A stretch of DNA of 64,000 nt. Origin: Burkholderiales bacterium (GTDB lineage Bacteria > Pseudomonadota > Gammaproteobacteria > Burkholderiales > Burkholderiaceae_C). Under the pieces are notes generated by a model. That model saw only the letters and a program-made list of their open reading frames with translations, was not told where the DNA came from and did not search any database. The translations under genes and the position numbers were made by a program. Below are positions 22,619-48,180 of this stretch, piece by piece (position 1 is the first letter of the stretch; each line of letters begins with the position of its first letter). The stretch is from assembly GCA_017307855.1 (NCBI GenBank), contig JAFKGD010000011.1, forward strand, positions 1 to 64,000, in the 5' to 3' direction.

Positions 22619-22791
22619 GGCGTTTCCTTTCGGAGATGAAGAGCCTTCATCGTCCGGTCGCCACGTGAAGCGTGGGTAAACGCCCGGCAAAGGAAATCGC
22701 CAGCTTGTGCCAAGCCTGCCCCGCGCATGAAGCGCCCGTGAACGGCGCCCACAAGTCGCCACCAACTCCGTGTGCGCGGCGGGTGCGGGGC

Positions 22792-23484
22792 TCAGATCGC
22801 CACGAGCTGGCGGATGCCCCTGGCCTTCATCTCTTCGCCGGGACCGCGCGCGATGACCTCGCCGCGCTCCATGACGAGATAGTCATCAGCCAGCTCCTCG
22901 GCGAAGTCGTAGTACTGCTCGCACAGCAGGATGGCCATGTCGCCGCGGTCGGCCAGCATGCGGATCACCCGGCCGATGTCCTTGATGATGCTGGGCTGGA
23001 TGCCTTCCGTGGGTTCGTCGAGGATCAACAGGCGCGGCCCGGGTGCGAGTGCCCGGGCGATCGCCAGTTGCTGCTGCTGCCCTCCTGACAGGTCTCCGCC
23101 GCGCCGATGCAGCATCTGCTTGAGCACAGGGAACAGCTCGTACAGCTCGGCCGGCACCGGCGTGGACCCGCTGCGGTAGGCCAGTCCCATGCGCAGGTTT
23201 TCTTCCACCGTGAGGCGCGCAAAAATCTCGCGGCCCTGCGGCACGAAGCCGATGCCGGCGCGCGCGCGCTCGTAGGGCGTGGCGTCATGGATGGAGCGGC
23301 CATCGAATTCGATGCTGCCGGTCTTGATCGGCACCAGGCCCATCAGGCTCTTGAGCAGCGTGGTCTTGCCCACGCCGTTGCGTCCGAGCAGAACGGTGAC
23401 TTTGCCCAGACGGGCCTCGAGGCTGACGTCGCGCAGGATATGCGAGCCGCCGTAGTACTGGTTGATGTTCTTGACGGTCAGCAT
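22792..23484 (-). CDS. urtE: Urea ABC transporter ATP-binding protein UrtE
   Basis: A 230-residue branched-chain-type ABC ATPase. P-loop LLGRNGVGKTTLLKSLMG, signature DLSGGQQQQLAIARAL and Walker B LLILDEPTEGIQPSII are intact; EGIQPSII is the usual UrtE/LivF form. With UrtD it drives urea import through UrtBC. Last gene of urtABCDE; 129 bases with a hairpin separate it from urtD. Confidence 0.93.
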   Translation of the reverse strand: MLTVKNINQYYGGSHILRDVSLEARLGKVTVLLGRNGVGKTTLLKSLMGLVPIKTGSIEFDGRSIHDATPYERARAGIGFVPQGREIFARLTVEENLRMGLAYRSGSTPVPAELYELFPVLKQMLHRRGGDLSGGQQQQLAIARALAPGPRLLILDEPTEGIQPSIIKDIGRVIRMLADRGDMAILLCEQYYDFAEELADDYLVMERGEVIARGPGEEMKARGIRQLVAI

Positions 23485-23538
23485 GGTGGGATGTCGTGTC
23501 GCAGAGATGTCTTCCGGCCCCGGCCCGGCAAGGTGGCC

Positions 23539-23570
23539 GGACGGACAGCCGCCCGCGCGGCTGCCCGTCC
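23539..23570 (-). other. Hairpin in the urtD-urtE gap
   Basis: A stem of ggacggacagccgc with gcggctgcccgtcc (one mismatch) around ccgc, after the urtD stop. No T tract follows; it may protect or attenuate the upstream message, lowering urtE relative to urtD. Confidence 0.45.
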
Positions 23571-23613
23571 TTTCACACTCCCCTCTCCCGGCCGGCGCCG
23601 GCCTGTCCTGTCG

Positions 23614-24486
23614 TCAGCGGCCAAGGTACACCTCGATCACGCGCTCGTCCGCCTGCACCTCGTCCAGCGTGCCCTGCGCCAGCACCGAGCCATCGCACAG
23701 CACGGTGACGATCTCGCTGATGGCCCGGATGAAGGACATGTCGTGCTCCACCACCATCAGCGAATGGCGACCCTTGAGCGAGAGGAACAGTTCCGCCGTA
23801 CGTGCGGTCTCCTCGTCCGTCATGCCCGCAACGGGTTCGTCGAGCAGCAGCAGCTTCGGATCCTGCATGAGCAGCATGCCGATCTCCAGCCACTGCTTCT
23901 GGCCATGGCTCAGGTTGCCGGCCTGCCGCGTGACGCTGGCCCCCAGGTGGATCGTGTGCAGTACCTCGGCGAGCCGGTCACCCTGCGCCGAGTCGAGCCT
24001 GAACAACATCGACCTCTTCACGCCCTTGTCGGTCTTGAGCGCGAGCTCGAGGTTCTCGAACACCGTGAGTTGCTCGAACACCGTCGGCTTCTGGAATTTG
24101 CGGCCGATGCCGAGCTGCGCGATCTCGGGCTCGTTGTGCGCCAGCAGGTCGATCGTGCTGCCGAAATACACTTGGCCTTCGTCGGGCCGGGTCTTGCCGG
24201 TGATGATGTCCATCATCGTGGTCTTGCCCGCGCCGTTGGGACCGATGATGCAGCGCAGCTCGCCGGGGGCAATGTCGAGGTTGAGCTTGTTGATGGCCTT
24301 GAAGCCGTCGAAGCTGACACTCACGTCTTCCAGGTAGAGGATGCGGCCGTGAGTGACGTCCACCTCGCCGGCCACGTGCGGGCGCGCATAGCCCGCGCTG
24401 CGCCCGCCCGACTCGGTTTCGGTCTTGAGTTTCTCCATGCGCGCCGCCACGCGCTGCGCGCCCTGCTCCAGCAGATCGGGCGTCAT
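23614..24486 (-). CDS. urtD: Urea ABC transporter ATP-binding protein UrtD
   Basis: A 290-residue LivG-like ATPase with an N-terminal extension of about 45 residues typical of UrtD. P-loop CIIGPNGAGKTTMMDIITG, signature NLSHGQKQWLEIGM (the HGQKQWLEI form separates UrtD from LivG) and Walker B LLLLDEPVAGMTDEE are seen. It pairs with UrtE. The start overlaps the urtC stop by four bases. Confidence 0.95.
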   Translation of the reverse strand: MTPDLLEQGAQRVAARMEKLKTETESGGRSAGYARPHVAGEVDVTHGRILYLEDVSVSFDGFKAINKLNLDIAPGELRCIIGPNGAGKTTMMDIITGKTRPDEGQVYFGSTIDLLAHNEPEIAQLGIGRKFQKPTVFEQLTVFENLELALKTDKGVKRSMLFRLDSAQGDRLAEVLHTIHLGASVTRQAGNLSHGQKQWLEIGMLLMQDPKLLLLDEPVAGMTDEETARTAELFLSLKGRHSLMVVEHDMSFIRAISEIVTVLCDGSVLAQGTLDEVQADERVIEVYLGR

Positions 24487-25685
24487 GGTTTCGCTCCTTC
24501 GGCGCCTGCCTCGTGCGCGCGGCTCTCGGCCAGCGCCTGCGCCGGCGGTGGTGCGACGGCGCCCTTGACGAATTTGCTGCCCCGCCGCGCCAGCAACTGG
24601 CGCACCAGGCCCGCCACGCCCTGCGGCAGGAACAGCGTCACCGCGATGAACAGCAGGCCCAGGAAGTACAGCCAGTATTCAGGGAAAGCCACGGTGAAAT
24701 AACTCTTGGCACCGTTGACGAGGAAAGCGCCGACGATGGGGCCGATCAGCGTGGCGCGCCCGCCCACGGCCGCCCAGATGGCGATCTCGATCGAATTGGG
24801 CGCCGACATCTCGCTGGGGTTGATGATGCCCACCTGCGGCACGTAGAGCGCACCGGCCACGCCGCACATCATCGCCGAGAGCGTCCAGATCGTGAGCTTG
24901 TAGGCCAGCGGGTTGTAGCCCGAGAACATCACGCGGCTCTCCGCATCCCGGATGGCCTGCAGCACGCGGCCGAACTTCGAGGTGACGAGCCAGCGCGAGA
25001 ACAGGAAGAAGCCCAGCAACGTGAGGCCAGTGATGACGAACAGCGTCATGCGCATCTGCTGCGTGGCGATCGGGATGTCGAGAATCCGCTTGAAATCGGT
25101 GAAGCCGTTGTTGCCGCCGAAGCCCGTCTCGTTGCGGAAGAACAGCAGCATGGCGGCGAACGTCATCGCCTGCGTGATGATGGAGAAGTAGACGCCCTTG
25201 ATGCGCGAGCGGAAGGCGAAGTAGCCGAACACGAAGGCGAGCAGGCCCGGCACCGCCACCACCATCAGTGCCTGGAAGATGAACGAGTCGCTGAACGTCC
25301 AGTGCCAGGGCAATGCCTTCCAGTCGAGGAACACCATGAAGTCGGGCAACTCGCTCTTGTAGTTGCCGTCCAGGCCGATCTGGCGCATGAGGTACATGCC
25401 CATCATGTAGCCGCCCAGGGCGAAGAACAGGCCGTGGCCCAATGACAGGATGCCGGTGTAGCCCCAGATCAGGTCCATGGCCAGCGCGCAGATGGCGTAG
25501 CACATGATCTTGCCGAGCAGCGCCACCATGAAGTCGCTCATGTGGAACAGGCTGCCCTCGGGCACCACCATGTTGGCCAGCGGCGCGACGGCGCAGACGA
25601 AGACCAGGGCGGCCAGGAAGCCGCTCCAGCCGCGGCCGGACATCAATGGCGCCTTGGCGGGCAATTGCAAAGTCGTGGGATTCAT
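24483..25685 (-). CDS. urtC: Urea ABC transporter permease UrtC
   Basis: A 400-residue LivM-like inner-membrane permease with about nine to ten hydrophobic helices and the family pieces LIWGYTGILSLGHGLFFALG and GVYFSIITQAMTF. The NGFTDF stretch in the middle is usual for UrtC. It forms the channel with UrtB. Four-base overlaps at both ends link it to urtB and urtD. Confidence 0.95.
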   Translation of the reverse strand: MNPTTLQLPAKAPLMSGRGWSGFLAALVFVCAVAPLANMVVPEGSLFHMSDFMVALLGKIMCYAICALAMDLIWGYTGILSLGHGLFFALGGYMMGMYLMRQIGLDGNYKSELPDFMVFLDWKALPWHWTFSDSFIFQALMVVAVPGLLAFVFGYFAFRSRIKGVYFSIITQAMTFAAMLLFFRNETGFGGNNGFTDFKRILDIPIATQQMRMTLFVITGLTLLGFFLFSRWLVTSKFGRVLQAIRDAESRVMFSGYNPLAYKLTIWTLSAMMCGVAGALYVPQVGIINPSEMSAPNSIEIAIWAAVGGRATLIGPIVGAFLVNGAKSYFTVAFPEYWLYFLGLLFIAVTLFLPQGVAGLVRQLLARRGSKFVKGAVAPPPAQALAESRAHEAGAEGAKP

Positions 25686-27247
25686 GCTTCACGGCCCTTG
25701 ATGGCGAAGATGCCTTGGGGGCGCTTCTGGATGAACACGATGATCAGCACCAGCACGGTGATCTTGGCCAGCACGGCACCCGTCCAGCCTTCCAGCACCT
25801 TGTTGAGAATGCCCAGGCCCAGCGCCGCGTACACGGTGCCCGCCAACTGGCCGACGCCGCCCACCACGGCCACCATGAACGCATCGACGATGTAGGTCTG
25901 TCCCAGGTCGGGTCCGACGTTGCCGATCTGGCTGAGGGCGCAGCCCGCCAGGCCCGCGATGCCCGAACCCAGCGCGAACGCATAGGTGTCCACGCGCGCC
26001 GTGTTGACGCCCATGCAGGAAGCGATCGGGCGGTTCTGCGTGACCCCGCGCACGAACAGGCCCAGCCGCGTGCGGCTGATGAGGAAAGCCACGCCCGCCA
26101 GCACCAGCGCCGCGAACAGCACGATGAGCACGCGGTTCCACGGCAGCGACAGGTTGGGCAGCAGTTGCACGCTACCGCTCATCCACGCCGGGTTTTCCAC
26201 GCCGACGTTCTGCGCACCGAAGAGGCTGCGCACGCCCTGCATCAGCATCAGGCTGATGCCCCAGGTGGCCAGCAGCGTCTCGAGCGGGCGGCCGTAGAGG
26301 AAGCGGATCACGCTGCGCTCCAGCGCCGCGCCCACCAGTGCCGACGCCATGAACGATACGGGGATGGCGGCCACCAGGTACCAGCCGAATGCGGCCTCGG
26401 GCAGCCAGCGCTGGAACAGCCCCTGCGTGACGTAGGTGGCGTAGGCGCCGATCATCATCAGCTCGCCGTGGGCCATGTTGATCACGCCCATCAGACCGTA
26501 GGTGATGGCCAGGCCCAGCGCCACCAGCAGGAGCACCGAGCCCAGGCTGATGCCCGAGAACAGCTGGCCCAGGCGTTCGCCCCAGGCCAGGGCTTCGCTC
26601 ACCACCTTGAGCGAGGCCGAGAGCTGTGCCTTCACCTCGCCGTCTTCCTCGACGGTCAGGCGTTCGTTGAGCAACAGCCGCGTGTTGGTGCTGCGGCTGG
26701 ATTCGAGCAGCCTGGCCGCGGTGATGCGCTTGGCCTTGTCTTCGCTGTTGAGCAGGGCCGCCGCGCGCGCCAGTTCGAGCTGGTCGCGGATGGCGTCGTT
26801 CTTTTCGGCCGCCAGCGCCTTCTCGACCAGCGGCAGACGCGATTCGGATGGGTCCTTGAGCAGGGACTGCACCGCCGCCGCACGTGTGCGGTCGTCGGCA
26901 CTGAAAAGCGACAGCGTGGCCAGAGCCGTATCGAGCTCGCCACGCAGGTAGTTGTTGTTGACGACGTCTTCGGCGTCCTCGGGCACGGTCACTGCCGCAC
27001 CGGTCACGGGGTCGGTGCCGGCATCGCCGTTCATCACGAACACCGCGTCGTCCTTGAACTTCACGGAGTCGTCGGCCAGCGCCTGGATGAACGCCGCCGT
27101 CCTGTCGTCGGCATTCGCGAGGGCCTTCGCGATCGCCCCAACGCGCTCTTCCGCATCGCCGATCGCCATGCCCCGCGCCTCCTCGGCCGTGAGCGCATGC
27201 GCCCAGCCGGAAGCCAGCAGCATCAATGAAACCAGGAACAACCGCAT
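25682..27247 (-). CDS. urtB: Urea ABC transporter permease UrtB
   Basis: A 521-residue permease. A signal-like segment (MRLFLVSLMLLASGWAHA) leads into a periplasmic helical region of about 210 residues, characteristic of UrtB and absent from LivH, and then a LivH-like membrane domain (YGLMGVINMAHGELMMIGAY). The ATG used has GGAAA before it and starts the signal sequence directly; an ATG nine codons earlier is also possible. Together with UrtC it passes urea across the inner membrane. It follows urtA after a hairpin-containing gap. Confidence 0.93.
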   Translation of the reverse strand: MRLFLVSLMLLASGWAHALTAEEARGMAIGDAEERVGAIAKALANADDRTAAFIQALADDSVKFKDDAVFVMNGDAGTDPVTGAAVTVPEDAEDVVNNNYLRGELDTALATLSLFSADDRTRAAAVQSLLKDPSESRLPLVEKALAAEKNDAIRDQLELARAAALLNSEDKAKRITAARLLESSRSTNTRLLLNERLTVEEDGEVKAQLSASLKVVSEALAWGERLGQLFSGISLGSVLLLVALGLAITYGLMGVINMAHGELMMIGAYATYVTQGLFQRWLPEAAFGWYLVAAIPVSFMASALVGAALERSVIRFLYGRPLETLLATWGISLMLMQGVRSLFGAQNVGVENPAWMSGSVQLLPNLSLPWNRVLIVLFAALVLAGVAFLISRTRLGLFVRGVTQNRPIASCMGVNTARVDTYAFALGSGIAGLAGCALSQIGNVGPDLGQTYIVDAFMVAVVGGVGQLAGTVYAALGLGILNKVLEGWTGAVLAKITVLVLIIVFIQKRPQGIFAIKGREA

Positions 27248-27334
27248 TCGAATTTCCAGCAAGTCCGTGAACATTCTTCGCGAGCCGCGACGCGGAGCCA
27301 GGGCGCGCCACGCAGAGCCGCCTCACGCGGCCGC

Positions 27335-27390: not shown

Positions 27391-28659
27391 TTATTTCTTC
27401 ACCGGCTCGTCGGGCTTCTTGTCGTTGCCTTCGATGTACGGCGACCACGGCTTGGCCTTGACCGGGCCGGGGGTCTTCCACACCACGTTGAACTGGCCGT
27501 CGGCCTTGATCTCGCCGATGAACACGCTCTTGTGCAGGTGATGGTTCTTCTCGTCCATCTTGGAGACGATGCCCGAGGGCGCCTTGAAAGTCTGGCCGGC
27601 CATGGCAGCGATGACCTTGTCCGGATCGGTCGACTTGGCCTTCTCGACAGCCTGTTTCCACATGTTGATGCCGATGTAGGTGGCCTCCATCGGATCGTTG
27701 GTCAGGGGCTTGTCCTTGTGGCCAGGGATGTTCTTGGCCTTGGCGTAGTCGGTCCACTTCTTGATGAACGCGGTGTTTTCCGGGTTCTTGATCGACATGA
27801 AGTAGTTCCAGGCGGCCAGGTGGCCCACCAGCGGCTTGGTGTCCACGCCACGCAGTTCTTCTTCGCCCACGGAGAAGGCGACGACCGGCACGTCCTTGGC
27901 CTTGAGGCCGGCGTTGCCCAGTTCCTTGTAGAAGGGCACGTTGGAGTCGCCGTTGATGGTGGACACCACGGCCGTCTTGCCGCCCTGGCTGAACTTCTTC
28001 ACGTCGGCGACGATGGTCTGGTAGTCGGCATGGCCGAACGGCGTGTACTTCTCGTCGATGTCGCTGTCCTTGACGCCCTTGCTCTTGAGGTAGGCGCGCA
28101 GGATCTTGTTGGTGGTGCGCGGGTACACGTAGTCGGTACCCAGCAACACCCAGCGCTTGGCGCCACCGCCAGCCTTGCTCATCAGGTAGTCGACGGCCGG
28201 GATGGCCTGCTGGTTGGGCGCGGCGCCCGTGTAGAACACGTTCTTCGACAGCTCTTCGCCTTCGTACTGCACGGGGTAGTACAGCAGCGCGTTGGCTTCT
28301 TCGTAGACGGGCAGCACCGACTTGCGGCACGACGACGTCCAGCAGCCGAAGGTGACGGCGACCTTGTCCTGCGACACCAGCTGCTTGGCCTTCTCGGCCG
28401 CCAGGGGCCAGTTGGAGGCGATGTCGACTACGACCGGTTCGAGCTTCTTGCCCATCACGCCGCCCTTGGCGTTGATCTCGTCGATCGTCATGAGCACCGT
28501 GTCCTTGAGCACGGTTTCCGAGATGGCCATGGTGCCCGACAGGCTGTGCAGGATGCCGACCTTGATGGTGCCGCCCGACTGGGCGAAGGCGGGCGAAGCC
28601 ATCACGCCTGCCAGCGCGGCGGCGGCAGCAATGGCCTGGATGGTGAAACGACGTTGCAT
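27391..28659 (-). CDS. urtA: Urea ABC transporter substrate-binding protein UrtA
   Basis: A 422-residue periplasmic binding protein with signal peptide (MQRRFTIQAIAAAAALAGVMASPAFA) and the UrtA/AmiC-type fold: IKVGILHSLSGTMAISE, FGCWTSSCRKSVLP and NALLYYPVQYEGEE are UrtA hallmarks. It captures urea and hands it to UrtBC. GGAG lies seven bases before the ATG; the frame before it is upstream DNA. First gene of the importer operon, whose promoter lies in the 240-base gap shared with the divergent DUF3348 gene. The Urt system in other bacteria responds to nitrogen limitation. Confidence 0.96.
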   Translation of the reverse strand: MQRRFTIQAIAAAAALAGVMASPAFAQSGGTIKVGILHSLSGTMAISETVLKDTVLMTIDEINAKGGVMGKKLEPVVVDIASNWPLAAEKAKQLVSQDKVAVTFGCWTSSCRKSVLPVYEEANALLYYPVQYEGEELSKNVFYTGAAPNQQAIPAVDYLMSKAGGGAKRWVLLGTDYVYPRTTNKILRAYLKSKGVKDSDIDEKYTPFGHADYQTIVADVKKFSQGGKTAVVSTINGDSNVPFYKELGNAGLKAKDVPVVAFSVGEEELRGVDTKPLVGHLAAWNYFMSIKNPENTAFIKKWTDYAKAKNIPGHKDKPLTNDPMEATYIGINMWKQAVEKAKSTDPDKVIAAMAGQTFKAPSGIVSKMDEKNHHLHKSVFIGEIKADGQFNVVWKTPGPVKAKPWSPYIEGNDKKPDEPVKK

Positions 28660-28766
28660 GTGTGCTCTCCGGGTGGTTGGATCGGCTCGCCGCGCCGCCT
28701 GCCCCTCCGGGTGGCCGTTTCGCTGGCGATGCGGCCGATTCTGGAGAGCACCCCCCGCCGCGCATA

Positions 28767-28782
28767 TACGCCGGGTGGCGTA
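28767..28782. promoter_or_regulatory. Palindrome in the urtA / DUF3348 divergent promoter region
   Basis: tacgcc-gggt-ggcgta, a perfect 6+4+6 dyad 108 bases before the urtA ATG. It is the right size and place for a regulator dimer, possibly the LuxR-type regulator encoded further along, but no binding is shown. Confidence 0.35.
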
Positions 28783-35915: not shown

Positions 35916-38123
35916 TCAGAACTTGAAGTTCGCCGTGACCAGCGCCGAGCGGGGCGCACCCGGGGTGTAGCGGTTGCCGTTGTTGTTGATGGTGGCCAGA
36001 TAGAACTTGTCGGCCAGGTTGTACACGTTGAGCTGGAGCGAGACGTTCTTGCTCACCTCGTACGACGCCATCGCATCGAACACCCAGTAGCTCGGCATCT
36101 CGGGCATGTTGGCGGCCGGCGTATTGGTCGTCTGGCGAGCCACGCTGGACATGTAGCGCGCGCCGCCACCCAGCGTGATGCCGTGGCCGAGCCGGTAGGT
36201 GGTCCACGAGGTGAACGAGAGGTCGGGCGACCACTGCAGCGTGGCACCCTGCGCCGCCGTGTTGCTCTGTGCCAGCTTGGTGTTCATCTTGGCGATTCCG
36301 GCGCTGACCGACCACGCTTTGGTGATCTCGCCCACCAGGCCCAGTTCGATACCGTTGACGGTCTTCTTGCCGAGCTGGATGACTTCACCAGGCAAGGTGC
36401 CGGTGGCCGCGATTTCGTTCTTGTTCTCGCTGCGATAGATCGCGCCGGTGACGGCGAGCCGGTTGTCCAGCAAATCCCATTTGGTGCCGAACTCGAGGTT
36501 GGTGGCCTTCTGCGGATCCAGGTTCGGATTGTTGATGTTGGTCGCCGTCGCGTTGAGCGAGAAGTTGCTGCCGCCCGGCGGCTGCTGCGACGTCGAGAAC
36601 GAGCCATAAATGCTTCCGTTGGCAGCCGGCTTGTACACGGCACCGAGCTTCCAGCTCACGATGCTGTCGGAATCGGTGATCTCGGTCACGGCGCCGTTGG
36701 CCGCGATGTCCTTGTTGACCACCTTGTACTTGTCCAGCCGCAGGCCGCCGTTGAGCAGCCACTGATCGTTGAGCTTGAGGGTGTCGAAGGCATAGAGCCC
36801 CAGCGTGGTGACGCGGTCTCGGTCCTGCACCCCGGAGAAGCCGAGCGTGGTGTATGCGGTCGTGAGCTGGGACGGATCGGGGCTGTAGGCATTGGCGGCC
36901 GGTATGCCCGCCACGGTGCTGTAGGCGCGATTGTGCTGGCGCTCCTGGATCAGCTCGACGCCCGTGCTCAGGGTGTGTTCGTAGGCACCGGTCTTGAATG
37001 TGGTGGTGAGGTTGGTCTGGTTGGTGAAGAGCTCGTTCTCCTGCCATTTGGTCTGGCGCGAGCGACTCACGGTGATCGGATTGCCGGCCGTGGCGGCGCC
37101 CGGTGCGAACAGCATCAGGTCGTGTCGCACGCGAGCGACGCGCGTGGTGTTGCGCAGCGTGGTTCCGGCCGCCAGATCGTGCTCGATGCGGGCGGTCAGC
37201 ACGTCGCCATCGACTTTCTCGAAGTCGGAGAGGGAACCGTAGTAGTTCTCGCGGCTGGCCCGCGCCTGGCCTGCGATCGTGGTGTAGTTGGGCAGGCCCA
37301 GGGTCGTGACGCCGCCATCGGGCCGGTTGTCCTGCTCGACGTGCTCGTAGCTCAGGAACGTGCGTGTCGGCGTGTTCAGCCCGAGCGCCAGCGACGGCGC
37401 GAAAGACACGCCCTTGTTGCGCACGTAGTCGCGGCCCGGTACGCCACCGTCCTGCACCATGGCGTTGAAGCGGATGGCCGATGTCTCGCCGAGGATGCGG
37501 TTGACGTCGATCGTGCCACGCTTCTGATCGGCCGTCCCCAAGCTGCCGGAGCCCGAGACGAAGTTCTCCAGGCGCGGCACCTTCGTGGCCAGGTTGATCG
37601 TGCCGGACGGCGCACCGCGGCCGAACTCGGAGCCTGAAGGGCCCTTGATGATTTCGACCTGCTCGATGTTGTACATGTCACGGGGGAAGTTGCCCAGATC
37701 GCGAACGCCGTCGATGTAGACGCTGCCCGACGAATCGAAGCCGCGCATGAAGATGTTGTCCTTGGTATTGCTGTTGCCGCCCTCGCCCAGGGTCATCGTG
37801 ATGCCCGGCGTGTTGCGCAGCGCCTCCAGCAGGGTTCGCGCGCCCTGCTCCTGAAGAATTTCCTTCTTGATGACGGTGATCGTTTGCGGCGTGTCGACCA
37901 GCGGCTGCGTGAACTTGGGCGACGAAACCTTGTCGGCCTTGTAGTCGCCGCCCTCTGCGGACTCCTGCACCTGAACGGCTGGCAAGGTGCCGCCGCTGCT
38001 CGTCCCCTGCGCTGCGGCGGGTAGCGCCGTGAGCGCCAGCACGGCGGCCGCGGCGGCGGTCAATCGGGGATGGATGTGGCGGCGGTGTGCGTCGGCCGGC
38101 TTGAGGTTCTTGGTGTGTGCCAT
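35916..38123 (-). CDS. TonB-dependent catecholate-type siderophore receptor
   Basis: A 735-residue outer-membrane receptor: signal peptide (to about residue 39), plug domain (DTPQTITVIKKEILQEQGAR, NIFMRGFDSSGSVYIDGVRD, VEIIKGPSGSEFGRGAPSGT) and a 22-strand barrel ending in the typical aromatic residue (ALVTANFKF). The plug is of the Fiu/CirA-like catecholate type. It imports ferric siderophore with TonB-ExbBD energy. The Fur box upstream indicates iron repression. It stands alone; no synthesis or ABC genes are nearby. Ligand is inferred only broadly. Confidence 0.9.
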   Translation of the reverse strand: MAHTKNLKPADAHRRHIHPRLTAAAAAVLALTALPAAAQGTSSGGTLPAVQVQESAEGGDYKADKVSSPKFTQPLVDTPQTITVIKKEILQEQGARTLLEALRNTPGITMTLGEGGNSNTKDNIFMRGFDSSGSVYIDGVRDLGNFPRDMYNIEQVEIIKGPSGSEFGRGAPSGTINLATKVPRLENFVSGSGSLGTADQKRGTIDVNRILGETSAIRFNAMVQDGGVPGRDYVRNKGVSFAPSLALGLNTPTRTFLSYEHVEQDNRPDGGVTTLGLPNYTTIAGQARASRENYYGSLSDFEKVDGDVLTARIEHDLAAGTTLRNTTRVARVRHDLMLFAPGAATAGNPITVSRSRQTKWQENELFTNQTNLTTTFKTGAYEHTLSTGVELIQERQHNRAYSTVAGIPAANAYSPDPSQLTTAYTTLGFSGVQDRDRVTTLGLYAFDTLKLNDQWLLNGGLRLDKYKVVNKDIAANGAVTEITDSDSIVSWKLGAVYKPAANGSIYGSFSTSQQPPGGSNFSLNATATNINNPNLDPQKATNLEFGTKWDLLDNRLAVTGAIYRSENKNEIAATGTLPGEVIQLGKKTVNGIELGLVGEITKAWSVSAGIAKMNTKLAQSNTAAQGATLQWSPDLSFTSWTTYRLGHGITLGGGARYMSSVARQTTNTPAANMPEMPSYWVFDAMASYEVSKNVSLQLNVYNLADKFYLATINNNGNRYTPGAPRSALVTANFKF

Positions 38124-38408: not shown

Positions 38409-39443
38409 TCAGCCTTCGAACTGCGGCTGCAGCGGGCGGATGCGGCTCATCGCCATGGCGGCGGCGGCCGTGCGGGTCTCGACGCCGAGCTTGGCGAACA
38501 CCCGCTCCAGGTGCTTCTTCACCGTGGCCGGGCTGGCGCCCAGGATGTCGCCGATGTCGCGGTTGATCTTGCCCTTGACGACCCAGTAGAGCACCTCGGC
38601 CTCGCGGGCCGTGAGGCCGAAGGCCGTGGCCATGGCGTCGATCACCGAGGCGTCGTCTTCTTCGCGCATCACGATCAGCCAGTCGCCAGTGCCGCCCTCG
38701 TCGCCGGTCTGCCGGTGCAGCCGGAACGTGAGGCGGCAGGCGCCCTGCTCCACCGTGAGACGCGGCGGCTCGATGTGGGCCTGCGCGGCGGCCAGGTGGC
38801 GGCGCAGCCAGTCGACCACGGGTTGGGGCGTCACCGGCGCGGCCGTGCCGTAGTGCTTCATGAGCAGGTCGCGCGCCAGCGGCGTCTGCCACATCAGCCG
38901 GCCGTCGGATACGCGCACGGTGATGCTGGCGTAGCCGAAGGCGTCGAGTGCGTTGCGCGCCTGCCCGGCCTGGCGCGCCTGCGCCCGCGCGGCGCGCGCG
39001 GCGCCCAGGTGTACGCCCATGCGGGCCAGCACCTCGCGCGGCTTGATGGGCTTGGTGACGTAGTCCACGCCGCCCGACTGCAGGGCCGCCACCAGGTATT
39101 CGGTGTCGGTGAGGCCGGTCATGAAAATGATCGGAATCTGCGCCGTCGCCGGCTGCGCCTTCAGGCGCCGCGCCACCTCGAAGCCGTCCATGCCAGGCAT
39201 GACGGCGTCCAGCAGGATGACGTGCGGCTGCGCCTGCGCAGCCCGCGTCAGGGCGGCCTCGCCCGAGGTGGCCACCAGCACGGTGTAGCCCGATTCGTCG
39301 AGCGCGTCGTGCAGCACGGCCAGGTTGTCGGGCACGTCGTCCACGATCAGCACGACCTCGCCGTCGCCCAGCGGCAAGGTGGCAGGAGAGGCCGCGCCGG
39401 TGGCAGCCGGTGCCGTGGGCGACGCAGTGGCAGAGGGGTTCAT
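38409..39443 (-). CDS. LuxR-type response regulator, partner of the permease-kinase
   Basis: A 344-residue DNA-binding regulator: receiver at residues about 28-150 (VVLIVDDVPDNLAVLHDALD; phospho-acceptor Asp79 in LLDAVMPGMDG; switch Lys in YVTKPIKP), a PAS-like or unique middle region (ASITVRVSDGRLMWQTPLAR) and a C-terminal LuxR/NarL helix-turn-helix (LTAREAEVLYWVVKGKINRD, then ASPATVKKHLERVFAKLGV). Twenty bases after the hybrid kinase and cotranscribed with it. Position next to urease and the urea importer suggests it controls them; targets are not shown by sequence. Confidence 0.85.
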   Translation of the reverse strand: MNPSATASPTAPAATGAASPATLPLGDGEVVLIVDDVPDNLAVLHDALDESGYTVLVATSGEAALTRAAQAQPHVILLDAVMPGMDGFEVARRLKAQPATAQIPIIFMTGLTDTEYLVAALQSGGVDYVTKPIKPREVLARMGVHLGAARAARAQARQAGQARNALDAFGYASITVRVSDGRLMWQTPLARDLLMKHYGTAAPVTPQPVVDWLRRHLAAAQAHIEPPRLTVEQGACRLTFRLHRQTGDEGGTGDWLIVMREEDDASVIDAMATAFGLTAREAEVLYWVVKGKINRDIGDILGASPATVKKHLERVFAKLGVETRTAAAAMAMSRIRPLQPQFEG

Positions 39444-39463
39444 GGCAGTCGGAAGCAGTCCGT

Positions 39464-42400
39464 TCAGGGCACGCTCGCCGGCGGCGCGTCCGGCGCGGCG
39501 GCAAGCAGGTCGTCGATGGCTTCGAGGCGGAACTCGCGCGCCATCGCGCGCAGCCTTTCGGCAAGGGGTGCGCATTCGGGCTGCGCGGCTTCCATTTCGG
39601 CAATCTGGTTGACGATGCCGCGGTAATAGCCCAGCGCCACCACCTCGCGCAGCATCTGCAGGCGCTCGCGCGCCGGATAGGTCAGCGGCGCATCGGAGGC
39701 GTTCGCGGGTTCGGACGTGGGCGCCGCATGCTCCAGCCATTGCAGCGCCAGGCGGCGGCCCAGCCAGTCGAGCAGTTCGGCATGGCGCACGGGCTTGACG
39801 ATGAAGTCTTCGGGGCCGATGCCGGCGTCGTTCTCCAGGCCCTTGTCGAAGGCGTTGGCCGAGACGATGGCCACCTGCGTGCCTGCCCCCAGCCCGGCCG
39901 CGCGCATGCGCCGCAGCGTTTCCCATCCGTCGATGCCGGGCATGGCAAGGTCCATGAAGAGGGCGTCGGGCGCCAGGCCCGCGGCCAGCAGGTCGAGCGC
40001 GTCGTGGCCGCTGGCGGCCGTGCGCAACTCGAAGCCCAGCGGCTCCAGCAGGTTGACCAGCAGATCGCGATCGGCCTCTTCGTTGTCGACCACCAGCAGT
40101 TTGCGGCGCGGCCCGGCATAGCCGCGCCGGGGCTGGCGCACGGGCTCGGCGCTGTGTGCGGCCCCGGTCAACTCGGGCAGGAACAGGCGCACGCGGAAGG
40201 TGGCGCCCTGCCCCGGCGTGCTGTCCGCGCTGAGCTCGCCGCCCATGAGGTCGGTGAGCATCTTGGCGATGGTCAGGCCCAGGCCCGCGCCGGGCGCGGC
40301 CAGCGCGGCGCCATCGCCACGCGCGAAGGGCTCGAAGATCTTTTCCAGCTCGCCGGCCGGAAGGCCCGGACCGGTGTCGGCGATCTCGACCAGCGCCATC
40401 TCGCGCGCGTAGCGTACGCGCAGGCTCACGCCGCCGCGCTGGGTGAACTTGACGGCATTGCCCAGCAGGTTGATGAGGATCTGGCGCACGCGCTTCTCGT
40501 CGGCGCGCACCAGCGCGGGCAGCCGCCCGTCGGCCGTGAAGCGGAACGACAGGCCGCGCGCGGTGGCCTGCGGCTCGAACATGCCTGCCATCTCCTGGAT
40601 GCAGTCGGCGAAACGCATGGGCTTGAGGTCGAGCGTGAGCTTGCCCGCCTCGATGCGGGCAATGTCCAGCGTGCCCTCGATCAGCGACAGCAGGTGCTCG
40701 CCGCCGCGCCGGATCACGTTGACGGCCTGGCGCCGGTGTGCGGGCACCGACGGGTCTTCGCCCATCAGCTGCGCATAGCCCAGGATGCTGTTGAGCGGCG
40801 TGCGCAGCTCGTGGCTGATGGCGCTGAGGTACCGGCTCTTGGCCTGGTTGGCATGCTCGGCGGCATGCTGGGCGCGCTCGGCTTCGAGCCTGGCGCGCTG
40901 CAGCGCCTCGTCGGTGAGGCGGTGCGATTCGATCTCGCGCATCAGCAGATGGGTCTGGCGGTTGGACTCTTCCTGCGCCACCTGCCGGCTCTTGTGCGCG
41001 AGCACCAGCCACCAGGCCACGATGCCGGCGATGAGGATGAGGGCCAGATAGGCCTTGAGGAAGCCCAGCCCCAGCGCGTGGCTGGCCAGTCCCTCGCCGC
41101 GCAGCACGCCCGCTGGCGAGAACATCTGCTGCGCCGATTCCTGCAGTGCCCGCAGCTCCTGGTGGTAGAGCAGCCCGAACACCGCCGCCAGCAGCGGCAC
41201 GATCACCAGCATGAGGAGGAGGTAGTGGCCCAGGCCGGTGTCGAGGTAAGGCCAGATGCGGCGCGGCAGCAGCCAGCGCAAAGCGCCCGACCACTGGGCC
41301 GACAGGCTCGCGTGCGGCTTGCACAGGTCGCCGCAGCGCGCATCGAGCGTGCAGCAGAGCGAACAGATCGCGCCCTGGTAGGCCGGGCAATGGGCCATGT
41401 CCGGGCCCTCATACTCGCGCTCGCATATCGTGCAGCGCTGCGTGACCAGCACGGGAGCGGTAAAGGACGTGGCGGGGGTGGCCGCAGAGCGCTGCCAGCG
41501 CAGCGGCTGCTCCTGCTGCGGGCCGCGTGCAATGTAGTAGCGGCCCTTCGTGAGCCACGCGATCAGCGGCGACGTGACCAGCGCCGTGCCCAGCGCGATG
41601 AGCGCCGAGAACGCCTGCGCCATGGGCCCGAACAGCCCCAGGTGCGCCAGCATCGACAGCGCCGAGGCCAACACCATCGCGCCCACGCCCACCGGGTTGA
41701 TGTCGTAGAGGTAGGCGCGCTTGAACTCGATGCCGCGCGGCGACAGGCCCAGCGGTTTGTTGATGACCAGGTCGGCCACCACGGCCATCATCCAGGCGAT
41801 GGCGATGTTGGAGTAGAGGCCCAGCACGTCGCCCAGCGCCTCGAACACGTTCATCTCCATCAGCATGAAGGCGATCAGCGTGTTGAACACCACCCATACC
41901 ACGCGACCGGGGTGGCTGTGCGTGAGGCGCGAGAAGAAGTTGCTCCAGGCCAGCGAACCGGCATACGCATTGGTGACGTTGATCTTGAGCTGCGACACCA
42001 CCACGAACAGCGCCGTCGCCGCCACCGCCAGGCCGTAGTGCGGAAACACGTATTCGTAAGCCGCCAGGTACATCTGGTTGGGATCGACCGCGCGCTCGGT
42101 CGGCACCATGTGGGTGATCGCCAGGTACGCCAGCAACGCGCCGCCCAGCATCTTGACCACGCCCAGCACCACCCATCCCGGGCCGCCCGCCAGCACGCCG
42201 GCCCACCAACGCACGCGGCCGCCGAACGCGGGTTGCGGCATGAAGCGCAGGTAGTCGGCCTGCTCGCCCATCTGCGTGATGAGCGCGATGCCCACTGTCA
42301 ATGCGGCACCAAACAAGGGCATGCTGAAGCCATCCACGGTGCCTTTCTCACCTTTGTAGTGCGTGATGCCCGCGAATGCCCCAGGATCGAGCGCCAGCAC

Positions 42401-43039
42401 GAACGCGAACGGCACGATCAGCATCAGCAGCCACAGCGGCTGCGTCCACAACTGCAGGCGGCTGATCGCCGAGACACCGTGCGTGACCAGCGGAATGACC
42501 ACCAGCGCGCAGATCAGATAACCCCAGCTCGGCGGAATGCCCAGCGCCAGCTCTAGCGCATAGGCCATCACGGCAGCCTCCAGCGCAAAGAAGATGAAGG
42601 TGAAGCTGGCGTAGATCAGCGACGTGATGGTCGAGCCGATGTAGCCGAAGCCCGCGCCGCGTGTGAGCAGGTCCATGTCGACGCCATAGCGCGCGGCGTA
42701 GATGCTGATGGGAAGCCCGGCCGCGAAGATGATGAGCCCGGTGGCCAGGATGGCCCAGAACGCATTGGCGAAGCCGTACTGCACCAGCAGGGTGGCGCCC
42801 ACGGCCTCCAGGATGAGGAAGGAGGCCGCGCCGAATGCCGTGTTGGCCACCCGCCACTCCGACCATTTGCGGAAACGCTGCGGGGTATAGCGCAGCGCGT
42901 AGTCCTCCATGGTCTCGCTGGCCACCCAGCTGTTGTAGTCGCGCCGGACCTTGACCACGCGCTGCGGCGCCTCGCCGCCATCGGCCGCGTCGGCGGTGGC
43001 CGGCAAGGTGTCGGCAGGAATCGGAGGGTGGGCGCTCAC
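39464..43039 (-). CDS. Hybrid histidine kinase with NCS1/cytosine-permease-like transporter as sensor
   Basis: About 1191 residues from the GTG used here. Residues about 30-510 form a complete NCS1 (purine-cytosine permease-like) transporter of about 12 helices ([40 protein letters not shown]). Then a nine-cysteine module (about 535-575), two more helices (about 600-715), a coiled linker, the DHp box [19 protein letters not shown] with phospho-His743, HATPase with NLLGNAVKF and [12 protein letters not shown], a receiver with Asp1030 ([12 protein letters not shown]) and an Hpt-like helical tail. It should sense, and perhaps import, a nitrogenous solute. The frame is open to 43180, only eight bases from ureA, so a downstream start is more likely; exact start is uncertain. 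Divergent from ureA. Confidence 0.88.
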
Positions 43040-43188
43040 GCCAGCAGCGGTGCAGCTTCCGTGCCATTGAAGGCCGGTCGGGCCGCTGCAGGGCGGCGAC
43101 GCCGTTTCCACGCTGCCGCAGGGGTGGCCCGGCATGGGCCTTGCAACGTCCCCATAATTGTCCGCATCGCCCCCAGACATCGCAGGCC

Positions 43189-43491
43189 ATGGAACTCACC
43201 CCCCGGGAAAAAGACAAGCTCCTCCTCTTCACCGCCGCGCTGCTGGCCGAGCGCCGCCGCGCACGCGGCCTCAAGCTCAACTATCCGGAAGCCATCGCGC
43301 TGATCTCGGCCGCCGTCATGGAAGGCGCGCGCGACGGCAAGAGCGTGGCCCAGCTCATGAGCGAAGGCCGCACGGTGCTCGCGCGCGAGGACGTGATGGA
43401 GGGCGTGCCCGAGATGATCCCCGACATCCAGGTCGAGGCCACCTTCCCTGACGGCACCAAGCTCGTCACGGTGCATCAACCCATCCCCTGA
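43189..43491 (+). CDS. ureA: Urease subunit gamma
   Basis: A 100-residue urease gamma chain ([60 protein letters not shown]). Part of the (UreABC)3 enzyme that splits urea to ammonia and carbamate. First gene of the urease run; the gene normally before it in this order, ureD, is not here and the permease-kinase takes its place in divergent orientation. Confidence 0.97.
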
Positions 43492-43501
43492 GGCGGCAAC
43501 C

Positions 43502-43807
43502 ATGATCCCCGGTGAACTCATCGTCGATGGCGACGACCACGTGCTCAACCCCGGTCGCCGCACGCTGACCGTGCGGGTGCTGAATACAGCGAGCCGTCCC
43601 ATCCAGGTGGGCTCGCACTACCACTTCGCGGAAACCAACGGCGCGCTCGACTTCGACCGAGCCGCCGCGCGCGGCATGCGCCTGAACATCGCCTCGGGCA
43701 CGGCCGTGCGCTTCGAGCCCGGCCAGCAGCGCACCGTCGAGCTGGTCGACCTCGGGGGAGATCGCGTGGTGTACGGATTCCGCGGCCTGGTCCAGGGCGC
43801 GCTCTGA
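43502..43807 (+). CDS. ureB: Urease subunit beta
   Basis: A 101-residue urease beta chain with the family pieces [39 protein letters not shown] and [16 protein letters not shown]. Short form without the Helicobacter fusion to gamma. Ten bases after ureA. Confidence 0.97.
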
Positions 43808-43832
43808 GCGAGACAGGGAAAGAACACACGAC

Positions 43833-45551
43833 ATGGCAACCATCTCCCGCCGCGCCTACGCGGAAATCTTCGGCCCCACCGTCGGCGACCGCGTGCGCCT
43901 GGCCGACACCGACCTCGTCATCGAAGTCGAGAAAGACTTCACCCTGGCCGCCGGTGGCTACGGCGAGGAAGTGAAGTTCGGCGGCGGCAAGACCATCCGC
44001 GACGGCATGGCGCAATCGCAGCGCACCAACCACTCGGGCGCGATGGACTGCGTGATGACCAACGCGCTCGTCCTAGACCACTGGGGCATCGTCAAGGCCG
44101 ACATCGGCATCAAGGACGGCCGCATCGCCGCCATCGGCAAGGCCGGCAACCCCGACACGCAGCCCGGTGTGAACATCGTCATCGGCCCGGGCACCGAGAT
44201 CATCAGTTGCGAAGGCAACATCGTCACGGCCGGCGGCATCGACAGCCACATCCACTTCATCAGCCCGCAGCAGATCGAAGAAGCCCTGTGCTCGGGCGTG
44301 ACCACCATGCTCGGCGGCGGCACCGGCCCGGCCACCGGCACCTTCGCCACCACCTGCACGCCGGGCCCGTGGAACATCGAGCGCATGCTGCAGGCGGCCG
44401 ATGCCTTCCCGATGAACCTGGGCTTTCTGGGCAAGGGCAACGCGAGCCGGCCCGAGGCGCTGCGCGAGCAGATCGACGCGGGCGTCATCGGTCTGAAGCT
44501 GCACGAAGACTGGGGCACCACGCCTTCGGCCATCAGCAACTGCCTGGACGTGGCAGACGAAACCGACACGCAGGTGGCTATCCACTCTGACACGCTCAAC
44601 GAATCCGGCTTCGTGGAAGACACCATCGCCGCCACCAAGGGACGCGCGCTGTGCGCCTTCCACACCGAAGGCGCGGGCGGCGGGCACGCGCCCGACATCC
44701 TGCGCGTGGTGGGCGAGGCCAACTTCCTGCCCTCGTCCACGAACCCCACGATGCCCTATACGGTGAACACGCTGGACGAGCACGTGGACATGCTCATGGT
44801 GTGCCATCACCTGGACGCCGGCATCGCCGAAGACCTGGCCTTCGCCGAAAGCCGCATCCGCAAGGAAACCATCGCAGCCGAGGACATCCTGCACGACATC
44901 GGCGCCATCAGCATGATGAGCAGCGACTCGCAGGCCATGGGCCGCGTGGGCGAGGTCATCCTGCGTACCTGGCAGACGGCGCACAAGATGAAGCAGCAGC
45001 GTGGCACGCTGCCCGAGGACAGCAGCAGGAACGACAACTTCCGCGCCAAGCGCTACGTCGCCAAATACACGATCAACCCGGCCATCTCGCACGGCATCAG
45101 CCACGAGGTGGGCAGCATCGAGGTGGGCAAGTGGGCCGACCTGGTGGTATTCAAGCCGGCCTTCTTCGGCGTCAAGCCCGCGCTCATCCTCAAGGGGGGC
45201 TTCATCGCATTCGCCGCCATGGGCGATCCCAACGCTTCCATTCCCACGCCGCAACCCGTGCACTACCGGCCGATGTTCGGCGCCTTCGGCGGCGCGCTGC
45301 ACAGGAGCTCGTTCACCTTCGTGTCGCAATCCGCACACGGCCTGGGCGTGCACGAACGTGTGGGCATGAAGAAGAACGTGGGCGTGGTGAAGAACATCCG
45401 CCAGGTGCGCAAGCAGCACCTCATCCACAACGGCGCGTTGCCGGTGATGGAGATCGATCCGCAGACCTACGCCGTGCGCGCCGACGGCGTGCTGCTCACC
45501 TGCGAACCGGCGAAGTCGCTGCCGATGGCTCAGCGGTACTTCCTGTTCTGA
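43833..45551 (+). CDS. ureC: Urease subunit alpha (catalytic)
   Basis: A 572-residue catalytic chain. All nickel ligands are present: His139 and His141 (DSHIHF), carbamylated Lys222 and nearby His224 (GLKLHEDWG), His251 (AIHSDTLNE), His277 ([11 protein letters not shown]) and Asp365 ([10 protein letters not shown]). The mobile flap Cys324 and His325 ([10 protein letters not shown]) are also intact. Activation needs the UreEFG chaperones encoded just after it and UreD, which is not in the window. No break or odd residue seen. Confidence 0.98.
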
Positions 45552-45646
45552 ACGCGCGGCTGGGCACGGTGCGCCCGGCCCTCTCGCATCGGCCCGGTAT
45601 AACAGCGCCTCACCTTCAAGCGTGTCCGCCCGGACCTCTTCCTTCC

Positions 45647-46252
45647 ATGCTCCAGGTCTCCAGACTCATTCCCGCCGGCCAGGGCCTCGCGCCCGTGCTG
45701 CTCAAACGCGCGGCCACCGTCCAGCTCGACTGGGACGTGCGCCAGAAAAGCCGCTTCGACGCCACCGATAGCCAGGGCCGCGCTCTGGGCGTGTTCCTGC
45801 CACGCGGCACGCTGGTGCGCGGCGGCGATGTGCTGGTGGCCGCCGACGGCTCGCTGATCCGCGTGGTGGCTGCGCCGCAGCCGGTGCTCGTCATCACGCA
45901 CTGCACCGAACACGGCACGCCGTTCGACCTGCTGCGCGCCGCCTATCACCTGGGCAACCGGCACGTGCCGATCGAGCTCACGCCCACGCACCTGAAGATC
46001 GAGCCTGACCACGTGCTGGCAGACATGCTGCGCGCGATGCACCTGATCGTGCGCGCGGCCGACGAGGCGTTCGAGCCCGAGGGCGGCGCCTACGGCGCAC
46101 ACAGCGCGTCGCATGGACACGGCCATGGGCATTCGCACGACCACGGCGACAGCCATGGGCACGGCCACGCGGATGGCCATTCCCACGACCACGCCCATCC
46201 GCATGAAGGACACGATCACGGCCATGACCACGGCCACCGCCATCCGCACTGA
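45647..46252 (+). CDS. ureE: Urease nickel chaperone UreE with long His tail
   Basis: A 201-residue metallochaperone: the N-terminal peptide-binding domain, the C-terminal metal domain with the conserved [10 protein letters not shown], and a tail of about 48 residues with 21 histidines alternating with Gly/Asp/Ser. Such tails, as in Klebsiella, hold several nickel ions. The start follows a 95-base gap after ureC. The stop lies inside ureF, which begins in another frame within the His-tail coding DNA. Confidence 0.95.
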
Positions 46253-46937
46253 CGTGCCTGCCGCCGCACTGGATGCGGCGAGCCTGCTCGACCTGATCTG
46301 GCTCGCCTCGCCCGCGCTGCCGGTGGGCGGCTTCTCGTACTCCGAAGGGCTGGAGGCCGCCGTCGAATGGGCCGGCGTGAAGGACGAGGCATCGGCCGCG
46401 CTCTGGCTGGTCGACCAGTTGCACCTGACATTCGCACGCGCCGATCTCGCCGTGCTGGCGCAAGCCGTGCCGGCCTGGCGCGCCAACGACCGCGAACGCC
46501 TGACGCACCTCACCGCCTGGGTGCTCGCCACGCGCGAGAGCGCCGAGTTGCGGCTGCAGACCGAGCAGATGGGTCGCTCGTTCGTCGAGTGGCTCAAGCT
46601 GCGGCACGCCGACGCGGCCTCCTGCTTTGCCGGCCTGCCAGCCACCTACCCCGTGGCCTTCGCCTTCGCCGTGTCGCGCACGGGCGCCCCGGTGCGCGAT
46701 GCCGCTCTGGCCTTCGCCTTCGGCTGGGCCGAGAACATGGTGGCGGCGGCCGTGCGCGCCGTGCCGCTGGGCCAGAGCGCGGGCCAGCGCATCCTGGCGA
46801 GGCTGGCGGCCGACATTCCCGCCGCCGTCGATACCGCCATCGCCCTGGCCGACGATGCGCGCCAGGCTTTCTCGCCGCGCCTGGCCATCCTCTCGGCGCG
46901 GCACGAAACACAATACTCACGGCTGTTCCGCAGCTGA
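46224..46937 (+). CDS. ureF: Urease accessory protein UreF
   Basis: A 237-residue all-helical GTPase-assisting protein ([40 protein letters not shown]), which with UreD and UreG builds the nickel site of UreC. The start is uncertain because several ATGs lie in the Thr-rich reading of the UreE His-tail DNA; this one follows AAGGA at a somewhat long distance and gives normal length. Overlaps ureE by 29 bases. Confidence 0.93.
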
Positions 46938-46965
46938 CCCCTCCCCTTCCCCAAGGACGACAACC

Positions 46966-47616
46966 ATGGCCTCCGCCCTGCATCACATTCCCAACCGCAC
47001 CAAGAAGCTGCCGCCGCTGCGCGTGGGCATCGGCGGGCCGGTCGGCTCCGGCAAGACCACATTGCTCGAGATGCTGTGCAAGGCCATGCGCGACAGGTGG
47101 GACCTGATCGCCATCACCAACGACATCTACACCAAGGAAGACCAGCGCCTGCTCACGGTCAGCGGCGCGCTGCCGCCCGAGCGCATCATGGGCGTGGAGA
47201 CCGGCGGCTGCCCGCACACCGCCATCCGCGAGGACTGCTCGATCAACCTCGAAGCCATCGACCGCATGCTGGCCGAGCATCCCGATGCCGACGTGGTGTT
47301 CGTCGAATCGGGCGGCGACAACCTGGCGGCCACCTTCAGCCCCGAACTGTCCGACCTCACCATCTACGTGATCGACGTCGCTGCGGGCGAGAAGATCCCG
47401 CGCAAGGGCGGTCCGGGCATCACCAAGAGCGATCTGTTCGTCATCAACAAGACCGATCTCGCGCCGCACGTGGGCGCCAACCTCGACGTGATGGAGTCAG
47501 ACACGCGCCGCATGCGGCCCACCAAGCCGTTCGTGATGACCAACCTCAAGACGCTCTCGGGTCTGGACGAGGTGGTGTCTTTCATCGAGAAGCGCGGCAT
47601 GCTCGCCGCCGCCTGA
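46966..47616 (+). CDS. ureG: Urease accessory GTPase UreG
   Basis: A 216-residue SIMIBI GTPase with P-loop [12 protein letters not shown] (Lys30), the nickel motif [13 protein letters not shown] (Cys-Pro-His) and the guanine motif [10 protein letters not shown]. It delivers nickel to UreC by GTP hydrolysis in complex with UreF and UreD. AAGGAC lies before the ATG. Confidence 0.97.
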
Positions 47617-47643: not shown

Positions 47644-48180
47644 ATGCAGCGCTTCACCATCTCGCTCGACGACGATCTGGCCCGGCAGTTCGACGAGATG
47701 ATCGCCGCGCGCAGCTACGGCAACCGCAGCGAGGCGGTGCGCGACCTGCTGCGTCATGAGCTCGGCCACGCCCGGCTCGAGGCCCCGTCAGGCTCGGCCG
47801 CCGCCGCGCGCTGGTGCGTGGCCAGCGTGAGCTACGTGTACGACCATCACGAGCACAGCGTCTCCACCCGCGTGATGAGCCTGCAGCACGACCAGCACGA
47901 CCTGGTGGTGACCAGCCTGCACACGCACCTGGATCATGACCATTGCATGGAGACGGTGGTGCTGCGCGGCCCCACGGCGGCCGTGCAGGCGTTCGCGCAG
48001 CAGCTCGTCGCACTGCGCGGCGTGCGCCACGGCAAGGTTCATCTGGTGCCGCTGGCGGAAGACGCGGGCCACACGCATCCGCATCCACACGTCGACGGCC
48101 ACGCCCATGAGCATGAGCGCGCAGGCGTTGACGCTGCAGCGGTGCCTGCGCGCCACACGCATCTCAAGCCGCTCAACTGA
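47644..48180 (+). CDS. nikR: Nickel-responsive regulator NikR
   Basis: A 178-residue repressor: ribbon-helix-helix (MQRFTISLDDDLARQFDEMI, YGNRSEAVRDLLRHEL) followed by an ACT-like nickel domain with the square-planar ligand set His82, His93, His95 and Cys101 at the same spacing as E. coli NikR. A His-rich extension of about 40 residues at the C-terminus is unusual and may bind more metal. It starts 27 bases after ureG and so is probably made with urease, linking nickel supply to urease production. Confidence 0.95.
   Translation: MQRFTISLDDDLARQFDEMIAARSYGNRSEAVRDLLRHELGHARLEAPSGSAAAARWCVASVSYVYDHHEHSVSTRVMSLQHDQHDLVVTSLHTHLDHDHCMETVVLRGPTAAVQAFAQQLVALRGVRHGKVHLVPLAEDAGHTHPHPHVDGHAHEHERAGVDAAAVPARHTHLKPLN

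Follow-up and report, generated by a model that had tools for sequence, protein, structure and literature searches.

Among the described systems closest to the one reported here are the SLC5-STAC kinases CbrA and CrbS, in which a whole LeuT-fold carrier is fused to a kinase that works with a separate response regulator; CbrA is reported both to transport and to signal (PMC7096432, PMC13022988). Ks-Amt5, an Amt-type ammonium transporter joined to a histidine kinase, is a further case in which a nitrogen-source carrier has been recruited as the sensor of a kinase (PMC5764959). The fmdCABDEF cluster of Methylophilus methylotrophus combines amide and urea uptake genes with formamidase genes, and the passage available from its review names no kinase (PMC10781810), while a urtABCDE operon accompanied by LuxR-type two-component genes has been noted in a report whose figure legend names a hybrid kinase and, in the text available, gives it no function (PMC13296017). 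We report here a transporter-fused hybrid histidine kinase and its LuxR-type regulator from a 64,000-nucleotide stretch of a Burkholderiales bacterium genome (contig JAFKGD010000011.1, positions 1 to 64,000), referred to throughout as the window. A preliminary description of the window, made from its letters alone, had noted that this kinase lies amid urea genes, and our analysis confirms it.

The window protein resembles CbrA and CrbS in its fusion of a whole LeuT-fold carrier to a kinase and in its separate response regulator. Unlike in those systems, however, the carrier is nearest to the NCS1 proteins CodB and Mhp1, no STAC or PAS model matched and a module of eight cysteines stands at that point, the partner is of the LuxR type and the neighbours are urea and amide genes. 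Ks-Amt5 differs in its carrier family, in having lost transport and in that the part of its description available mentions no receiver (PMC5764959), and the Methylophilus cluster shares with our loci the uptake and formamidase genes. CodB and Mhp1 have the fold of the sensor half, to which the window protein adds a C-terminal Cys module and a kinase. NarL-type regulators bind heptamers in a 7-2-7 arrangement and the operator predicted below shares this inverted repeat with its 2-nt spacer, but the heptamer of the window family, TACGYCA, is different. Among the matches listed in the open-licence literature we found neither a characterised system of this kind nor an NCS1 transceptor in print.

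The open frame of the kinase (39464-43180, minus strand) extends up to an ATG at 43180. Its product carries HisKA, HATPase_c and a receiver with the catalytic residues in place, as is expected of a hybrid histidine kinase, and in all 106 of the hybrids compared (106/106) His790 is identical, Asp1077 and Lys1129 of the receiver are invariant and the eight cysteines are kept. The Cys module, which is built of short strands in the structure model, is probably metal-binding and, either as such or in a four-Cys version, also forms the C-terminal end of three standalone relatives. Between this module and the kinase the modelled helices likely form a transmembrane (TM) pair. We considered an Hpt domain for the C-terminal tail but rejected it, since that region has no conserved His.

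That the sensor half is of the NCS1 type, as had been proposed together with a call for structure prediction of the transporter half, is borne out by the fold: comparison of the structure model with solved structures places the NCS1/LeuT folds closest, with CodB and Mhp1 nearest at an identity of 14-16%, and the chains of CHT1 (20.5) and DUR3 (19.5), which we take to be SLC5 kin, score below them. Sequence profiles give a fainter signal. PF02133 has no match at E<=1 to the window protein or to the standalone relatives L013 and L088, and the standalone L102 matches at 31.7 against a cut-off of 23.5. Because the window protein misses this cut-off we describe its sensor half as NCS1-fold and do not file it as an NCS1 member, and because a PF02133 search of the window's own genome reached only another locus, the kinship is settled by fold. 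The NCBIfam cytosine permease match is weak (23.2 bits, cut-off 326), a sequence profile of the carrier family searched against solved structures returned a weak Cys-rich match alone (E 0.75), and no STAC or PAS Pfam match to the window protein was obtained at E<=1, whether Pfam holds a STAC model not having been checked. Urease-linked and amide-linked carriers differ consistently at 16 positions. The carrier half is also joined to other outputs: a carrier-plus-Cys sensor is fused to PAS-GGDEF-EAL, a cyclic di-GMP (c-di-GMP) output, at L099:7052-10726, the carrier half is joined to a PAS kinase at L101, and a short kinase form stands beside a REC-EAL protein, again a c-di-GMP output, at L103:6748-10759.

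Homologues were counted in samples of 100 genomes of the family, 369 of the class and 398 of the phylum, with the window's own genome and weak matches included. Kinase matches were present in 59/100 family genomes (two of them weak), 20/369 class-sample genomes and 64/398 phylum-sample genomes, and in 539 plasmid records, 342 of which are from Klebsiella. The loci fetched comprised 43 of the 73 long family matches besides the window, plus class and phylum matches of at least 45% identity. The preliminary description had made its reading depend on the homologues being linked to urea or purine genes; when the neighbours were tabulated, urt, ure or fmdA lay in the same stretch at 94 of 104 HisKA-fused loci (53 urt and fmd, 19 ure and urt, 15 ure, 4 fmd, 3 urt), six of the ten unlinked loci being on stretches shorter than 16 kb. 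A set of named loci, the best 80 of 576 confirmed, from Polaromonas, Variovorax, Acidovorax, Hydrogenophaga, Rhodoferax, Azonexus and others, gave 65/80 linked to ure or urt (33 ure, 23 ure and urt, 9 urt) and 15 with none, five on stretches shorter than 14 kb and ten on longer ones. Relatives of the window's own kind, at 75% identity or above, mostly have the kinase divergent from ureA; in most others it diverges from urtABCDE, with fmdA-fmdB-amiE or ureDABC behind. The tabulated neighbours are thus ure, urt, fmdA, fmdB and amiE, the entries listed as nitrilase being aliphatic amidase by NCBIfam in the two cases checked (719.7 and 715.2 bits, cut-off 427). UrtA of the window scores 587.5 bits on the equivalog TIGR03407, above the cut-off of 492.75.

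The regulator encoded beside the kinase has the receiver and GerE helix-turn-helix (HTH) of the NarL/LuxR type, and its putative operator emerged from counting without a preset motif: of 54 nonredundant intergenic regions between kinase and urtA, 44 contain the dyad TACG-N8-CGTA, against a null maximum of 14, and this dyad expands to TACGTCA-NN-TGACGTA, a 7-2-7 inverted repeat. TACGCCACCCGGCGTA, upstream of urtA in the window, is the sole exact match in the 4.99-Mb genome, with one further site at one mismatch; a reversed, non-palindromic control pattern has 37 matches at <=1 mismatch. Sites within one mismatch of TACGYCRNNYGRCGTA lie upstream of urtA at 41/51 loci whose urtA was not the scored divergent partner and in 37/60 upstreams where it was (54/60 at <=2), with none in shuffles (five per sequence) at <=1 mismatch. 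The 100 family genomes together contain 56 exact sites. Of these, 39 precede the UrtA model start of a full urtA by 159-329 bp, 3 stand ahead of a partial urtA, 4 ahead of an aliphatic amidase (in four genomes) and 2 at contig edges with the regulator on the same contigs. One genome without urtA over the cut-off (G013) has its exact site between the kinase and fmdA, and an operator also stands between the kinase and a standalone sensor paralogue that occupies the usual place of urt. At the short-kinase locus L147 the operator was not found at <=2 mismatches.

Presence of the operator follows that of the kinase: 41/57 kinase genomes have it, against 5/43 others (Fisher 1.2e-9, kinship ignored; the 57 take in the short-kinase G017, and G049, whose frame has stops). 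The 73 genomes with urtA over the cut-off divide into 36 with kinase and site, 16 with the kinase only, 3 with the site only and 18 with neither (p 2e-5). The recognition helix of the regulator covaries with the operator. Helices reading xATVKKHL or ATIKKHL (A + K) are paired with a C at base 5 of each operator half at 22 loci and with mixed bases at 5, whereas regulators with other helices have 4 operators with C at this base against 43 with T or mixed (p 2e-10, overstated since the loci are related); the locus L066, one of these four exceptions, contains two urt systems and has probably been mis-paired. Such pairing is what direct binding would predict. A TAnnnT hexamer falls exactly 24 nt past the operator in 28/40 and 16/50 nonredundant upstreams, while no other offset between 18 and 31 has it in more than 4; this sets the operator centre near -43, a position that would fit an activator at the -35 element. 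In the window, urtA transcription is predicted to begin at about 28731. A sigma-54 promoter for urtA was tried and rejected, with matches at <=2 mismatches in just 1/51 and 1/60 upstreams. The control of urt by this system, as first proposed, is supported by a conserved operator upstream of urtA that covaries with the regulator's recognition helix.

The same proposal for ure is not supported in the window, which has no operator-like site between ureA and the kinase and instead presents divergent sigma-54-like elements there. We scanned 72 ureA/kinase regions, the window included, with the sigma-54 consensus, allowing at most 2 mismatches and keeping GG and TGC, and found elements that face both genes in 46 of them, the kinase alone in 8, ureA alone in 8 and neither gene in 10 (46, 8, 9 and 9 under a looser rule); shuffled rates under the strict rule were 1.5% and 1.3% per direction. 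Since the whole window has 16 matches at <=2 mismatches against 15.9 expected by chance, the weight of its pair comes from position and conservation. Predicted transcription starts were placed by the -12 to +1 distance of sigma-54 promoters, and in 36 of 54 regions with the element the first in-frame start codon falls at -1 to +4 of this point (239/3067 in a shifted-anchor control). This clustering indicates that the kinase probably begins at GTG 43039, and to judge from the window (43039-43066) and its relatives the kinase message is probably nearly leaderless. An operator-like site (<=2 mismatches) is present in 22/72 of these regions (shuffles 11/1440), the window not being among them, and in 12 of these a TATAAT-like hexamer (at least 5/6) stands 23-25 nt closer to ureA than the site does (control 0.4%); L050, L106 and L166 of the 22 lack this arrangement. 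It would thus seem that only some members of the lineage have urease among the targets.

Features of the window
Feature	Position	Strand	Remarks
urtB, urtC, urtD, urtE	22792..27274	-	tblastn with annotated Urt proteins; Pfam for urtC, urtE
urtA, urea-type binding protein	27391..28659	-	TIGR03407, Pfam, ATG
-10-like hexamer CAGAAT	28738..28743	-	24 nt after operator
Predicted regulator operator TACGCCACCCGGCGTA upstream of urtA	28767..28782	-	conserved before urtA
Response regulator, receiver + LuxR-type (GerE) HTH	38409..39443	-	recognition helix PATVKKHL
Transporter-fused hybrid histidine kinase	39464..43039	-	~1191 aa from GTG 43039
Receiver domain of kinase	39767..40096	-	Asp1077, Lys1129 invariant
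HATPase_c	40178..40501	-	within the kinase
HisKA, phospho-acceptor His790	40643..40843	-	His790 identical in 106/106 hybrids
Long helices with two hydrophobic stretches, Cys module to kinase	40976..41263	-	sequence and model helices
Eight-Cys module	41321..41434	-	residues 583-620
NCS1-fold transporter half	41525..42961	-	residues 74-552 (43180 numbering)
Sigma-54-like element TGGCACGGAAGCTGCA toward kinase	43051..43066	-	predicted transcription start beside GTG
Sigma-54-like element CGGCATGGGCCTTGCA toward ureA	43130..43145	+	motif scan
ureA, ureB, ureC, ureE, ureF, ureG	43189..47616	+	divergent from kinase
nikR	47644..48180	+	after ureG

We consider it likely that kinase and regulator form a two-component system of the transceptor type, with urea or short amides as its ligands. 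Such a molecule would be bound, and perhaps carried, by the NCS1-fold half, and the state of the carrier would be relayed by way of the eight-Cys module and the TM pair to the kinase, which would phosphorylate the LuxR-type regulator. The regulator would then bind TACGYCA-NN-TGRCGTA some 43 bp before the transcription start and activate urtABCDE with sigma-70 polymerase; in relatives its targets would also include fmdA and amiE, with urease added in some of them. Divergent sigma-54 promoters would drive both the kinase-regulator operon and urease in the window's lineage, such that nitrogen starvation arms the system and substrate fires it, the regulator raising uptake and, in the other branch, amide hydrolysis as well. 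Sequence supports the anatomy, fold, linkage, operator, spacing and sigma-54 elements in this scheme; the ligand, signal direction, phosphotransfer, activation and coupling through the Cys module we infer. Ks-Amt5, whose kinase is reported to follow ammonium despite the carrier's lost transport, is an encouraging precedent (PMC5764959), and the comparable amide cluster of Methylophilus is described as induced by formamide and urea (PMC10781810).

Several observations count against this transceptor scheme. CbrA without its SLC5 domain is reported to retain autokinase and phosphotransfer, and the histidine that it carries leaves the kinase activities unaltered (PMC7096432). The carrier half in our system may likewise be a modulator or plain permease while the kinase responds to an internal signal, as has been proposed for CbrA, for instance ammonium or glutamine status or a metal read by the Cys module, and eight invariant cysteines could read zinc or nickel, nickel genes being close by. 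We regard this as rather unlikely, since one carrier half is kept across the HisKA hybrid, the PAS-GGDEF-EAL protein, the PAS kinase and the short kinase beside REC-EAL, which suggests that it is the common input, and since the Cys module or its four-Cys version terminates three standalone carriers, and so was probably not made for the kinase. Also adverse to the transceptor scheme are the PAS-GGDEF-EAL protein and the PAS kinase, which come from one genome and have no urea or amide gene in their stretch, the 6/56 exact sites without a urea or amide gene alongside, the 18/72 regions without a sigma-54 element toward the kinase, and the best operator match between ureA and the kinase of the window, which has 5 mismatches. 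No exact site lies within 600 bp of urtA in 16 of the 52 kinase genomes with urtA over the cut-off, some of which may hold mismatched sites. The p-values overstate, genomes and loci being related, and the chance rate of linkage, put at a few per cent, comes by inference and not from a random-locus control.

Three genomes have the site at urtA and no kinase, one of them only 74% complete, and in G027 neither the kinase nor a close regulator was found. This last case would suit an operator that belongs to another regulator of urtA and is merely correlated with the kinase system, a reading that we hold to be very improbable given that the recognition helix covaries with the operator, that site presence follows the kinase, that the site stands before fmdA where urtA over the cut-off is lacking and that a kinase-less genome which keeps the regulator also keeps the site. 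That genome, G062, retains its regulator (L283:4792-5916) beside ureA and the site at urtA. The preliminary description had also entertained allantoin or another purine product as the signal. Allantoin, hydantoin and nucleobases are known substrates of NCS1 carriers, and one standalone relative is annotated as an allantoin permease; this relative, however, sits with a urease operon, and the genes tabulated as linked serve urease, urea import, formamidase and aliphatic amidase functions, purine genes not having been searched for. In six annotated plasmid stretches no purine gene stood out, although again none was searched for, and we rank a purine signal as the least probable of the readings considered.

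Beyond the kinase itself, a tentative and somewhat less than evenly balanced case can be made for a wide family of NCS1-type urea or short-amide carriers that double as sensors, in which the standalone Cys-tailed forms would be permeases, one of them in the usual place of urtABCDE behind the regulator's own operator, and the fused forms would signal occupancy to kinases or c-di-GMP enzymes through the Cys module.

Some further observations concern the surroundings of these genes. The conjugative IncFIB/IncFII Klebsiella plasmid CP024516.1 (L010) carries amiF-urtEDCBA divergent from kinase and regulator, the DNA between the two containing an operator with one mismatch. In G033:C6 an exact operator (L285:4043-4058) lies directly against the gene of a Gram-negative porin, which is perhaps one for urea or amides. 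The sole UreD match of the window's own genome lies on another contig (G000:C6:559807-560412), apart from ureABCEFG. Nickel-related genes occur among the urea genes of the window: an RcnB-family nickel/cobalt gene (22217-22765, minus strand) follows urtE, nikR follows ureG, and a TonB-dependent receptor (35916-38123, minus strand), which we count with them, adjoins the regulator. Directly after nikR are two adjacent, slightly overlapping frames (48287-49558 and 49437-50555, plus strand), both matching the PF13354 beta-lactamase family.

As far as is known, urea import through UrtABCDE has mostly been treated as a matter of general nitrogen control. Sequence comparison across many Proteobacteria points to a specific sensor, a regulator and a DNA site; with this system one can ask directly if a carrier fold is able to sense its own substrate, and the predicted regulon of urt, fmdA, amiE and, in some, urease gives meaning to many genes annotated as 'hybrid sensor kinase'. 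If the wider reading of a family of sensing carriers is correct, it would supply an NCS1 transceptor and, for the urea and amide uptake of Proteobacteria, a substrate-specific regulator that has so far been missing, Klebsiella plasmids included.

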